Assembly (NCBI GenBank): GCA_025934385.1
Contig: JAICYE010000075.1
Coordinates: 1-7,957 of the forward strand
Source of the DNA: Acidimicrobiia bacterium
GTDB taxonomy: Bacteria; Actinomycetota; Acidimicrobiia; IMCC26256; BP-133
Length of the DNA stretch: 7,957 nt
Direction: 5' to 3'
The notes beneath the pieces were generated by a model. It searched no databases. It had not been told where the DNA came from and was given only the letters and a program-made list of their open reading frames with translations. Shown one piece after another: positions 866 through 7,496 of this stretch. Position numbers and translations under genes: made by a program. Position 1 is the first letter of the stretch, and the number at the start of each line of letters is the position of its first letter.

Positions 866-887
866 ATTCACCGGCCGGACGGTCGGT
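866..887. promoter_or_regulatory. PaaR-like operator upstream of paaZ
   Basis: The core ACCGGCCGGACGGT (870-883) fits ACCGNNCGNNCGGT, the centre of the 22-base palindrome bound by the TetR repressor PaaR upstream of paa genes in Corynebacterium glutamicum, as I recall that motif. Including the flanks ATTC and CGGT, 14 of the 16 specified positions agree. The two mismatches are T for C at 867 and G for A at 885. An overlapping wider dyad, TTCACCG...CGGTGAA, spans 867-890. The site ends six bases before a candidate -35 and about 85 bases before paaZ, so a bound repressor would block RNA polymerase. In C. glutamicum phenylacetyl-CoA relieves the repression. Transferring that here is inference, since no paaR is visible in the window. 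Confidence 0.65.
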
Positions 888-892
888 GAAAA

Positions 893-922
893 TTGGCAAA
901 CAGCGGGCCGGTGGCCTAGAAC
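893..922 (+). promoter_or_regulatory. Candidate promoter for paaZ-paaG
   Basis: TTGGCA (893-898) differs from the -35 consensus TTGACA at one base. It is followed after 18 bases by TAGAAC (917-922), a moderate -10. It lies just downstream of the PaaR-like operator, in the only AT-richer patch of the intergenic region. Predicted transcription would begin near 929, leaving a leader of about 40 bases. Confidence 0.5.
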
Positions 923-971: not shown

Positions 972-3029
972 ATGCGGGTCCTGCAGAGCTATGTCGGCGG
1001 GCAGTGGCTCACGCCGTCGGGAGACGGCGTCGAGGTCCACGACGCCACCACCGGGGAGCCGGTGGCCCGGGTGGGCAGCGACGGCGTCGACGTCGCCGCC
1101 GCCCTCGCCTATGGCCGGGAGGTCGGCGGCCCGGCGCTGCGGCGGCTGACGTTCGGGCGGCGGGCCGGGATCCTCAAGGCGCTCGGGGCGTACCTCGGCG
1201 AACAGAAGGAGGAGCTCTACGGTCTGTCGACGGCGGCCGGCGCCACCCGGCCCGACGCCTGGCTCGACGTCGAGGGCGGGACGGGCGTCCTCATGGTCTA
1301 TGCCGGGAAGGGCCGCAAGGAACTGCCCGACGCCACGTTCCTGCGCGACGGCGAGCCCGAGGTGTTGGCCAAGGACGGATCCTTCCTCGGGCTGCATCTC
1401 CTCGTGCCCCGGGAGGGCGTCGCCGTCCTCATCAACGCCTTCAACTTCCCGGTGTGGGGAATGCTGGAGAAGGTGGCCCCGGCGCTGCTGGCCGGCGTGC
1501 CGGTGCTGGTGAAGCCGGCCACGCCGACGGCCTACGTGGCCGAGGCGGCGGTGCGGCTGATGGCCGATTCCGGAGCCCTGCCCGATGGAGCGCTGCAACT
1601 GGTGTGCGGCAGCCTCGGCGACGCCTTCGACCACCTGACCGGGCAGGACTCCGTGTTCTTCACCGGCTCGGCGGCCACGGCCATGAAGCTCCGCTCCCAC
1701 CCGAACGTGCTGGCCCGGTCGGTCCGGTTCACGGCCGAGGCCGACTCGCTCAACGCCTCCGTCCTCGGCCCGGCGGCCACGCCCGGCACGGCCGAGTTCG
1801 ACCTCTACGTGAAGGAGGTCGCCCGGGAGATGACGACGAAGGCCGGGCAACGCTGCACCGCCATCCGCCGGGCGCTGGTGCCGGCGCCGCTGGTCGACGA
1901 CGTGGTGGCGGCGCTGGCCGACCGCCTGGCCAAGGTCGTCGTCGGCGACCCCCGCCGGGAGGAGGTCCGCATGGGCCCGCTGGTCAGCCTCGACCAGCGG
2001 AGCGAGGTCGAACGGGCGGTCGCCGCGCTGGCCGCCGGCGCCGAGATCGCCGTCGGCGGGCCGGCGGCCAAATTCGAGCCGCTCGGCGCCGATGCCGACC
2101 ACGGCGCCTTCCTCGCCCCAACGGTGCTGGTGGCCCGCGAGGCCGGCGCCGGTGGTGCGGGCGCCGCGGTGCACGACGTCGAACCGTTCGGGCCGGTGTG
2201 CACGGTGCTGCCCTACGACGGCGTCGACGACGCCGTCGACCTCGCCCGGCTCGGCCAGGGCAGCCTGGTGGTGTCGGTCTTCACCCCCGACGCCGCCGAG
2301 GCCGGCCGGCTGGCGCTGGGTCTCGGGCCCCACCACGGCCGGGTCCTCCTGGTCGACGAGCGCTGCGGGAAGACCCAGACCGGGCACGGCTCGCCGATGC
2401 CCCACCTCGTCCACGGCGGCCCGGGCCGGGCCGGCGGCGGCGAGGAGCTGGGCGGCGTCCGGTCGGTCCACCACCACCTCCAGCGGGTGGCGGTGCAGGG
2501 CTCCCCCGACACCCTCTCCGCGCTGACCGGCACGCTGCTGCCCGGCGCCACCCGCCACGAGGGCGGCCCGCACCCGTTCACCAGGCACTTCGAGGACCTG
2601 GCCCTGGGCGACACGCTGGTCACGGAGAAGCGCACGATCACCGTCGACGACATCGAGCGCTTCGCCGACCTGACCGGCGACCACTTCTACGCCCACACCG
2701 ACGAGGAGGCAGCGGCCAAGAGCCCGATCTTCAAGGGCCGGGTGGCCCACGGCTATTTCGTCATCGCCGCCGCCGCCGGGTTGTTCGTGTGGCCCGAGCC
2801 CGGGCCGGTGCTGGCCAACTACGGCATCGACCGGCTGCGCTTCACCACTCCGGTGCGGCCCGGCGACGAGATCCACGTCGTGTTCACCTGCAAGGAGAAG
2901 TCGCCCCGCCCCGGCGCCGGGTACGGCGAGGTGCGGTGGGACACGCAGGTCGTCAACCAGGAGGGGACGGTGGTGGCGGCCTACGACGTGCTCACGATGG
3001 TGGCCACGAGGGAGGCGGCGCAGAAGTGA
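972..3029 (+). CDS. paaZ: PaaZ: bifunctional oxepin-CoA hydrolase / 3-oxo-5,6-dehydrosuberyl-CoA semialdehyde dehydrogenase
   Basis: Ring-opening enzyme of aerobic phenylacetate catabolism. The C-terminal hydratase opens oxepin-CoA to an aldehyde, which the N-terminal dehydrogenase oxidises with NADP+ to 3-oxo-5,6-dehydrosuberyl-CoA. The 685 residues compare with about 681 in E. coli. Residues 1 to about 515 are an aldehyde dehydrogenase domain with NAFNFP (155-160), the cofactor lysine in KPATPT (Lys181), Glu256 and nucleophile Cys295 in AGQRC. The last two fall at the same numbers as the catalytic residues of E. coli PaaZ. The stretch GHGSPMPHLVHGGPGRAGG (471-489) is also typical of the family. 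Residues from about 535 to 680 are an (R)-specific MaoC-type hotdog hydratase with TGDHFYAH, giving the dyad Asp570/His575. Both active sites look intact. The ATG at 972 follows a strong Shine-Dalgarno. It is translationally coupled to paaG and probably controlled by a PaaR-like repressor. Confidence 0.96.
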   Translation: MRVLQSYVGGQWLTPSGDGVEVHDATTGEPVARVGSDGVDVAAALAYGREVGGPALRRLTFGRRAGILKALGAYLGEQKEELYGLSTAAGATRPDAWLDVEGGTGVLMVYAGKGRKELPDATFLRDGEPEVLAKDGSFLGLHLLVPREGVAVLINAFNFPVWGMLEKVAPALLAGVPVLVKPATPTAYVAEAAVRLMADSGALPDGALQLVCGSLGDAFDHLTGQDSVFFTGSAATAMKLRSHPNVLARSVRFTAEADSLNASVLGPAATPGTAEFDLYVKEVAREMTTKAGQRCTAIRRALVPAPLVDDVVAALADRLAKVVVGDPRREEVRMGPLVSLDQRSEVERAVAALAAGAEIAVGGPAAKFEPLGADADHGAFLAPTVLVAREAGAGGAGAAVHDVEPFGPVCTVLPYDGVDDAVDLARLGQGSLVVSVFTPDAAEAGRLALGLGPHHGRVLLVDERCGKTQTGHGSPMPHLVHGGPGRAGGGEELGGVRSVHHHLQRVAVQGSPDTLSALTGTLLPGATRHEGGPHPFTRHFEDLALGDTLVTEKRTITVDDIERFADLTGDHFYAHTDEEAAAKSPIFKGRVAHGYFVIAAAAGLFVWPEPGPVLANYGIDRLRFTTPVRPGDEIHVVFTCKEKSPRPGAGYGEVRWDTQVVNQEGTVVAAYDVLTMVATREAAQK

Positions 3030-3802
3030 GCGACGCCATTCTGCTGGAGCGCGACGGCGGCGTCGCCGAGCTCGTCCTCAACCGGCCCGAGCGGCGCAAC
3101 GCCCTCGACGAGCCGGCCCGGTCGCTGCTGGCCTCGGCCCTCGACGAGCTGGAGAAGGACCCGCCCCGGGCACTGCTGCTGCGGGGCGAGGGCAAGGGCT
3201 TCTGCGCCGGGCGGGACCTGAGCGACGCCGAGCCCTTCACCGAGGACGGCGAAGCCATCCTGGCGGCCATGAACCCGATCATCGCCCGCCTCCACGGGCT
3301 GGCGTGCCCGACGGTGGCGGCGGTGCAGGGCGCCGCCCTGGGGTTCGGGCTGGGCCTCGCCCTGGCCTGTGATCTGCTGCTCGTCGGCGAGAGCGCCAAG
3401 ATCGGCAGCCCGTTCGCCGCCATCGGCGCCGTCCTCGACTCGGGCTCGCATCTCTTCCTCTGCTCCCGCATCGGCCCGGCCCGGACGCTGGAGCTGGTCT
3501 ACACCGGCCGGTTCCTGTCCGGCGCCGAGGCGCTCGACTGGGGCATCGCCAACGCCGTGCACCCCGACGATGGACTGCTCGGCGCCGCCCGGGCGCTGGT
3601 GGCGGCCATCGGCGCCGGTCCGACGGCGGCCTTCCTGCTGTCGAAGGACCTCGTGGCCCGGATCGCCGGCGGCGGTCTGCGGCTCGACGACGTCCTGGCC
3701 GCCGAGGCCGCCGCCCAGGGCGCCGCCGCCCGCACCCGCGACTACGGCGAGGGCATGACCGCCTTCCTGGAGAAGCGCAAGCCCACGTTCACGGGCCGCT
3801 GA
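3026..3802 (+). CDS. paaG: PaaG: 1,2-epoxyphenylacetyl-CoA isomerase (crotonase fold)
   Basis: Crotonase-family protein of 258 residues, close to the family's usual 260 or so. It most likely isomerises ring-1,2-epoxyphenylacetyl-CoA to oxepin-CoA, the substrate of PaaZ, and may also shift double bonds in later dehydroadipyl-CoA intermediates. The CoA/oxyanion-hole segments are GFCAGRDL (58-65) and QGAALGFGLGLALACDL (101-117). In GAVLDSG (134-140) Asp138 lines up with the catalytic aspartate of PaaG-type isomerases, where hydratases have glutamate. The GTG start at 3026 overlaps the paaZ stop as GTGA, and GGAGG at 3011-3015 lies ten bases upstream, so the two genes are one operon with coupled translation. 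A generic enoyl-CoA isomerase is the main alternative. The neighbouring paaZ and the Asp138 motif favour PaaG. Confidence 0.88.
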   Translation: MSDAILLERDGGVAELVLNRPERRNALDEPARSLLASALDELEKDPPRALLLRGEGKGFCAGRDLSDAEPFTEDGEAILAAMNPIIARLHGLACPTVAAVQGAALGFGLGLALACDLLLVGESAKIGSPFAAIGAVLDSGSHLFLCSRIGPARTLELVYTGRFLSGAEALDWGIANAVHPDDGLLGAARALVAAIGAGPTAAFLLSKDLVARIAGGGLRLDDVLAAEAAAQGAAARTRDYGEGMTAFLEKRKPTFTGR

Positions 3803-3952: not shown

Positions 3953-4423
3953 TCAGTGGGTGTCGCGCCAGTCCTCGGGCCAGGCGTCCTCGCCGAGGTG
4001 CCAGCGGCCGGTGCGGAAGCACATCGCCTGGAACGAGGCCCGCAGCGTTCCGTCGGACTCCGACGTCACGTCGATGGCGTAGGACGCCGTCCGACGGGTC
4101 CGGGCCCGCTCCACCGCCGTCGCCCGCAGCGTCTCGCCGGGTAGCCCGGCCGACAGGTAGTGGATCTCGATGGACAGGGCGACGCAGATCCGGCCCCAGG
4201 AGTTGGACGACACGCCGAGGGAGCAGTCGCCCAGCGAGAACAGCGCTCCGCCGTGGACGCTGTCGACGAAGTTGAGGTGGCCCGCCTCCACGGGGAGGCG
4301 GTAGACGGCCCGTCCCCCGTCCCACTCCACGAGCTCGGCGCCGAGTCCCTTGGCGTAGGCGTCGCCCCGGAAGACGGCCTCGAGGCGGGCGCGATTGCGC
4401 TCCAACGGCGAATCGGTGGTCAC
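3953..4423 (-). CDS. paaI: PaaI-like hotdog-fold acyl-CoA thioesterase
   Basis: Predicted cytoplasmic thioesterase of 156 residues that hydrolyses (hydroxy)phenylacetyl-CoA-type thioesters. It is usually thought to free CoA when the phenylacetate pathway stalls. The hotdog signature is clear: Asn51, His57-Gly58-Gly59 in VHGGALFSLGD, and catalytic Asp66. The spacing is the same as Asn46, Gly53 and Asp61 of E. coli PaaI (140 residues). The GTG at 4423 is chosen because the protein then begins just before the usual PaaI N-terminus. A TACCAT -10-like box lies eight bases upstream, and there is no Shine-Dalgarno. An in-frame ATG at 4510 would add 29 unrelated residues and cross the next gene's start. 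It converges on paaG, so it is not in the same operon. Other small hotdog thioesterases share this motif, so the substrate is inferred from context. Confidence 0.82.
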   Translation of the reverse strand: MTTDSPLERNRARLEAVFRGDAYAKGLGAELVEWDGGRAVYRLPVEAGHLNFVDSVHGGALFSLGDCSLGVSSNSWGRICVALSIEIHYLSAGLPGETLRATAVERARTRRTASYAIDVTSESDGTLRASFQAMCFRTGRWHLGEDAWPEDWRDTH

Positions 4424-4431
4424 GGCTCGGA

Positions 4432-4437
4432 ATGGTA
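4432..4437 (-). promoter_or_regulatory. Candidate -10 box for paaI, leaderless
   Basis: TACCAT on the minus strand fits TANNNT and ends eight bases before the GTG at 4423. No Shine-Dalgarno is seen before that GTG, so a leaderless or near-leaderless transcript is likely. This box supports choosing the shorter start. Confidence 0.4.
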
Positions 4438-4480
4438 CGGAGGCCGGCCCTGGCGTCCTCGAAACGCAGCCACGGTTGGC

Positions 4481-4492
4481 TCCGGCGCCGGA
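4481..4492. repeat. Perfect 12-bp palindrome in divergent intergenic region
   Basis: TCCGGCGCCGGA lies between the divergent starts of paaI and the Lys-rich gene, 17 bases before the latter's ATG. It could be a regulator site shared by both genes, but a GC-only core of this kind arises easily by chance here. It does not fit the PaaR core ACCGNNCGNNCGGT. Confidence 0.25.
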
Positions 4493-4508
4493 CGGGTAGC
4501 GCGAGGTC

Positions 4509-7496
<2,988 letters not shown>

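Follow-up and report, generated by a model that had tools for sequence, protein, structure and literature searches.

A predicted PaaR-type operator at the paaZ promoter of an Acidimicrobiia lineage, with no clear PaaR orthologue in the assemblies of two relatives

The PaaR motif of Corynebacterium glutamicum is reportedly ACTNACCGNNCGNNCGGTNAGT, the form used in the initial annotation of the DNA described here. In this form it resembles the dyad before paaZ in our window (the whole stretch of 7,957 nucleotides of Acidimicrobiia DNA that was analysed) in its ACCG...CGGT elements, but its inner elements lie six bases apart, against ten in the conserved window dyad. In Thermus thermophilus, according to the available text of two reports, PaaR (CNAACGNNCGTTNG) is a TetR repressor of the paa genes that is released by phenylacetyl-CoA (PMC9493321, PMC6651687); the site as given there has the half-site AACG rather than ACCG and forms a shorter dyad than that of the window. 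The PaaR operator of Burkholderia cenocepacia, ACCGACCGGTCGGTT, is described in the accessible parts of its sources as a dual overlapping inverted repeat (PMC2770484, PMC9493321). As presented there, it is like the window site in its half-sites ACCGACC/GGTCGGT and in being a TetR operator at the paaZ promoter; however, it has no spacer, where the window has four bases, and it lies between the -35 and -10 boxes, whereas the window dyad lies upstream of the -35 box. A search for literature linking paaZ, Acidimicrobi- and phenylacetate found none, and the present site places a PaaR-class paaZ operator, as predicted here, in a poorly studied Acidimicrobiia lineage.

The window dyad, TTCACCGGCCGGACGGTCGGTGAA, covers 24 bp at positions 867..890 (no strand assigned) and is the best palindrome of bases 841-930, with 10 of 12 pairs and its centre at 878/879. 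Its core, ACCGRCC-N4-GGTCGGW, occupies 870-887 and reads ACCGGCC-GGAC-GGTCGGT in the window, that is, inverted ACCGACC-like half-sites of the PaaR type. The initial annotation had proposed a PaaR-type operator at 866..887 from a 14-base core and a 22-base palindrome. Both agreements are reproduced: ACCGGCCGGACGGT at 870-883 (no strand assigned) matches ACCGNNCGNNCGGT without mismatch, as an off-centre reading of the 24-bp dyad, and 866-887 agrees at 14 of 16 positions with the 22-mer given for C. glutamicum. The site is real, but the frame of 866..887 is two bases off; the element that is kept is the one at 867-890, and the corrected frame supplies the right 24 bases for binding tests.

The palindrome by itself is weak evidence, since 24-bp palindromes with at least 10 of 12 pairs arose in 58 of 1000 dinucleotide shuffles of the GC-rich intergenic region and two further places of the window also reach 10 of 12 pairs; the case is carried by conservation and motif. 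When the 270-bp intergenic region was shuffled in this way 1000 times, the exact 14-mer arose in 3 shuffles; the exact 18-mer ACCGNCCNNNNGGNCGGT, which was defined only once the site had been seen, arose in none.

A true paaZ was found in two of the 58 genomes of the order, G001 and G002, the former (locus L001) an Actinomycetota metagenome bin whose paaZ, at 88% identity, is closer to the window's than any other in the genome collection. Among protein hits of 88-91% identity, some bear the name Acidimicrobiia in their sources, which places the window in this class. The initial annotation had staked its reading on the motif recurring at the matching position in related species, and it is present before paaZ in both relatives that have the gene: the dyads TTCACCGACCAAGCGGTCGGAGAA (G001, with half-sites ACCGACC...GGTCGGA) and TTCACCGGCCGCGCGGTCGGTAAA (G002) occupy the same position and are followed two bases on by TTGACA and then by TAGAAC, so that window, G001 and G002 all combine location at a paa promoter with conservation. 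Against the originally proposed 14-mer, G001 shows one mismatch and G002 an exact match; against the 22-mer, they show four and two mismatches, respectively. The resulting three-way footprint is ATTCACCGRCCNNNCGGTCGG..AAARTTGRCA...TAGAAC. The gene upstream of paaZ is an ABC ATPase in the window and another, unnamed gene in G001 and G002, which we take by reading to be nuclease-like; because this neighbour differs, dyad and boxes form a footprint in which the promoter, not its surroundings, has been kept.

The -35 box that had been noted beside the operator is real: TTGGCA at 893..898 (+ strand), identified from sequence and alignment, stands two bases past the dyad and is TTGACA in both relatives. 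The -10-like box TAGAAC at 917..922 (+ strand) has the same letters in all three sequences and lies 18 bases from the -35 box in the window and 19 in G001 and G002. The promoter call rests on conservation, as a simple sigma-70 scan gave no match in 650-1050. Downstream, paaZ (972..3029, + strand) encodes an aldehyde dehydrogenase with a MaoC-type hydratase (Pfam Aldedh and MaoC; TIGR02278 984 bits, cut-off 562.8), and the solved PaaZ structure 6jql aligns with the window PaaZ at 687 bits (residues 4-680 of 685). The protein also scores 628 bits with the BoxD model, above its cut-off of 444, but BoxD identity was discarded, since this match does not discriminate: a PaaZ from Mycobacterium, whose gene we take by reading to lie near a paa cluster, exceeds the same cut-off (605 bits). 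The next gene, an enoyl-CoA hydratase/isomerase (3026..3802, + strand; Pfam ECH_1), has PaaG as its best NCBIfam model (179 bits, below the cut-off of 345) and probably forms one operon with paaZ, since its start overlaps the paaZ stop; gene order in G001 is identical. The ABC-type ATPase (Pfam) lies upstream of paaZ on the opposite strand and is presumably an ABC-F protein, judged by reading. None of the genes of the window could be recognised as paaR or as encoding an epoxidase, in agreement with the initial annotation. Elsewhere in the window, the reading frame at 4509-5093 contains many repeats of K, A and T (ATKATASKATASKATAKK) and looks by eye like a histone-H1-like tail, with no Pfam match.

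For comparison outside the lineage, 38 paaZ upstream regions of Actinomycetes were assembled from 30 loci (38 of 246 genomes had a match) and 8 loci out of 80; L023, which begins 48 bp before paaZ, was excluded, and L077 and L330 are one locus counted twice, leaving 37 distinct loci. The half-sites ACNGACC/GGTCNGT, framed on the eight loci already inspected, were scanned with spacers of 0 to 10. Spacer 4 was matched most, with 7 exact sites, 17 with at most one mismatch and 21 with at most two among the 38 regions (means of 0.0, 0.0 and 0.5 in plain letter shuffles), corresponding to 16 and 20 of the 37 distinct loci at the two looser levels; the 29 new distinct loci alone gave 4, 10 and 12. 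Spacer 0 ranked second (1, 9 and 20 of the 38 regions), in part because spacer-0 and spacer-4 readings overlap. All three window-lineage sites fit spacer 4 with at most one mismatch, and roughly half of the paaZ promoters compared from Actinomycetes have this geometry, ACnGACC-N4-GGTCnGT. Such a dyad, for example TTTACTGACCGATCGGTCTGTAAT, is like that of the window in its 24 bp, its 4-bp spacer and its place before paaZ, just ahead of a TTGACA-like box, and differs in its flanks, which are mostly TTT/AAT in Actinomycetes and TTC/GAA in the window lineage. The TTGACA-like box (at most two mismatches) lies 2 bp past the dyad in all three window-lineage sites and 3-4 bp past it in 13 of the 20 distinct Actinomycetes sites, where shuffled tails contain such a box somewhere in 29% of cases. 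From these sequence comparisons, the prediction of a PaaR-type operator before paaZ is well supported.

The regulator gives a different picture. Four TetR proteins whose genes adjoin paaZ in Mycobacterium and Promicromonospora were aligned (A1; identity to the first, 45-97%) and made into a PaaR profile; a Promicromonospora PaaR lies at L045:12142-12696. Its best scores were 348-352 bits in the two genomes that supplied profile members. In two independent genomes of Actinomycetes, one Nocardioides and one Nonomuraea, the best hits reached 237-238 bits, each at a distance of some kilobases from paaZ. A PaaR orthologue was therefore present in all four searched Actinomycetes genomes with such a dyad, two of them profile sources, whereas none is clear here: with every first-look candidate scored, the best reached 101 bits in the fragmented assembly of G001 and 76 in that of G002, against at least 203 for clear orthologues, and the G003 assembly likewise has no clear orthologue (best 100 bits). 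Among 395 Acidimicrobiia genomes, scored with at most 8 candidates per genome, only G235 has a clear PaaR orthologue (203 bits), and the other 394 stay at or below 110 bits. The G235 PaaR is on the paaZ contig, about 8 kb from paaZ, and its paaZ locus (L204) has a dyad-like site with 2 mismatches. In the window lineage, then, the operator is present but no PaaR orthologue is clear, the main caveat being that the assemblies are fragmented. In Actinomycetes the dyad and PaaR are loosely linked: of the 30 loci carrying some 1.5 kb of flank, five have a PaaR next to paaZ (208-259 bits), and at L320, L326, L334 and L346, four of the five, the dyad is lacking before paaZ (4-5 mismatches).

Hits before other paa genes, which the initial annotation named as support, did not appear around the PaaA/PaaC-family matches covered. 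No core with at most one mismatch was found in 16 loci around such matches in four genomes, where some contigs begin inside an operon; longer stretches contained one core match, inside a gene, and the 24-mer had a single 3-mismatch place (L153). Genome-wide counts, which are complete, were rejected as regulon evidence. The bare core is not enriched (66 matches against 63 for the control in G001, 55 against 43 in G002; with a looser form, 389 against 417 in G001), and the excess of the 24-bp form (17 and 20 in G001 and G002, against a control of 2) says nothing on a regulon, because it is equally large in two genomes whose paaZ has no dyad (24 and 15, against 2). The proposal that PaaR control extends to this lineage therefore divides. 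The PaaR-type operator at the paaZ promoter is supported by its occurrence in two relatives, its Actinomycetes geometry and its near-equal -35 spacing; PaaR itself and control by phenylacetyl-CoA do not follow, given no clear orthologue in the relatives' assemblies and no core with at most one mismatch in the loci taken around their PaaA/PaaC-family genes.

What is established is the site together with its conservation, geometry and spacing, and that the assemblies of two relatives show no clear PaaR orthologue; repression, the ligand and the identity of the regulator are what we infer. We see an even chance that a TetR-type repressor controls the paaZ-enoyl-CoA hydratase operon through the dyad, an operator of the PaaR class whose binder is probably a distant, non-PaaR TetR. 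One TetR dimer, or a pair of overlapping ones like that proposed at the Burkholderia operator, would bind 867-890 beside the -35 box and keep RNA polymerase off the paaZ promoter, until an aromatic acyl-CoA produced by the pathway released it. The operator class would be PaaR-type, as before paaZ in many Actinomycetes, and the dyad-binding protein here would be another TetR, probably no PaaR orthologue, with the leading candidate encoded close to an AurF-like diiron gene, which has the dyad as well. If no PaaR is present, the locus would be a compact case of a retained operator with a changed regulator.

A realistic, though rather unlikely, alternative is that a true PaaR orthologue is encoded at another place in the genome and has dropped out of the fragmented assemblies, with ordinary PaaR control and phenylacetyl-CoA as inducer. 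It is consistent with an operator geometry equal to that of PaaR-bearing genomes, with the dyad-like site before paaZ in G235, the one genome in 395 with a clear PaaR, and with the state of the assemblies, G001 being in at least 937 contigs and the G002 paaZ being broken off by a contig end; however, the best scores in G001, G002 and G003 are no higher than the background of the 394 other Acidimicrobiia genomes, as sampled with at most 8 candidates each.

The preferred reading of a distant TetR draws on a second good dyad, which in G001, G002 and G003 precedes a gene of 344 aa that matches AurF and rubrerythrin weakly. The candidate TetR adjoins this diiron gene in G002 and is one adenosine-deaminase-like gene further off in G001. 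At locus L189 it spans 4138-4701, its true start lying, by reading, probably about 15 codons upstream. TetR and diiron gene each occur in the same 3 of 58 genomes, which are close relatives, and the dyad precedes the diiron gene in 3 of 3. The candidate is 28-36% identical to nine PaaR proteins, compared with 22-32% for four other TetRs of these genomes; by PaaR-profile score it ranks first in G002 and sixth in G001, where five TetRs score higher. Its C-terminal domain is TetR_C_24, as in PaaR (Pfam), which does not single it out, since the domain is common to all five other G001/G002 TetRs tested. Judged from sequence, it may be regarded as the leading candidate for dyad binding, as a lead and not as proof. 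A PaaR-like TetR with a dyad of its own was also sought and given up: L168 has a match inside the neighbouring gene 279 bp before the TetR, and L164 has an intergenic match near 900 bp from the TetR start. The scanned TetR loci of G001 and G002 (85 loci, two of them paaZ contigs, meant to cover the listed TetR matches, together with contig C384; gene positions from a home-made codon-usage caller) contained no intergenic core match with at most one mismatch within 400 bp before a TetR start. The diiron gene was considered as a new epoxidase and dismissed; it is not special to phenylacetate but belongs to a widespread, uncharacterised family, as 602 homologues have E<=0.001 and the 120 listed are 69-100% identical and named from several phyla. 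In one locus (L189:6306-7340) the diiron-type protein, highly conserved and widespread, has no Pfam match over cut-off and is named rubrerythrin or hypothetical in the sources.

The same observations bear on an alternative that we consider doubtful, in which the dyad serves a TetR whose main job is a different one, for example the TetR encoded close to the genes for the AurF-like diiron protein, an AtuA-like protein and phosphate acetyltransferase, and paaZ was recruited to a general acyl-CoA or stress regulon with no phenylacetyl-CoA sensing. The dyad kept before the diiron gene in three genomes is in line with this, as is G003, which has the candidate TetR and the diiron gene and no paaZ in its assembly. 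So is the metabolic setting: no PaaA over the cut-off of 280 was found among the genes checked, namely three of nine PF05138 matches in G001 (115, 89 and 79 bits) and the sole one in G002, which is BoxB (622 bits), and G002 has benzoate-type boxB and boxC (860 bits). Chance recruitment, however, would not predict that the paaZ dyad shares the Actinomycetes geometry and nearly the -35 position. A further scenario, which we put forward speculatively and regard as unlikely, is that the lineage lost PaaR and kept the PaaR-type operator at paaZ, that the distant TetR near the AurF-like diiron gene took over, and that paaZ now works in an aromatic-CoA route that has been rewired and lacks the classical PaaABCE epoxidase. 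Finally, it is highly improbable that the palindrome has no regulator and simply arises from GC-rich promoter sequence. Its frequency in shuffles might allow this, but the arms are kept in three species beside divergent flanks, the exact 18-mer did not arise by shuffling and Actinomycetes operators match.

Two gene neighbourhoods of the relatives may be recorded here. In G002 (L198:2637-6330, contig C258), boxC and boxB of the benzoyl-CoA epoxide route adjoin a divergent PaaX-like gene (175 bits, not reaching its cut-off of 264.55). In G001 (L192, contig C95), a PaaK-like ligase and an enoyl-CoA hydratase occur with distant PaaA-, PaaD- and PaaC-like genes, and a short gene between them is PaaB-like by eye; this cluster possibly encodes a divergent aromatic-CoA oxygenase.

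Further dyad-like intergenic sites were looked at and set aside. In G001 they precede a nitronate-monooxygenase-like gene (C693), a subtilase gene (C137) and small genes next to a permease (C666); in G002 they precede a subtilase gene (C41) and an mltG gene (C317). We saw nothing that ties them to the degradation of aromatics, and the subtilase site alone is in both genomes, just before the gene (L190:2018-2041 and L196:3236-3259), with a divergent pirin gene in G001.

Across the rest of the class, 18 further paaZ loci were taken from 21 Acidimicrobiia genomes with a match (G001, G002 and the truncated L219 excluded); L005 and L022, the remaining two of the 20 loci compared, have 3 and 5 mismatches to the dyad. 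Two of the 20 come near it (at most two mismatches), L204 and L218, the latter as an exact spacer-0 site. By eye, a different palindrome, of the type TGATCAAAG..TTGATCA, precedes paaZ in at least five Acidimicrobiia loci (L205, L207, L208, L209 and L214), which suggests that paaZ of Acidimicrobiia is under more than one control.
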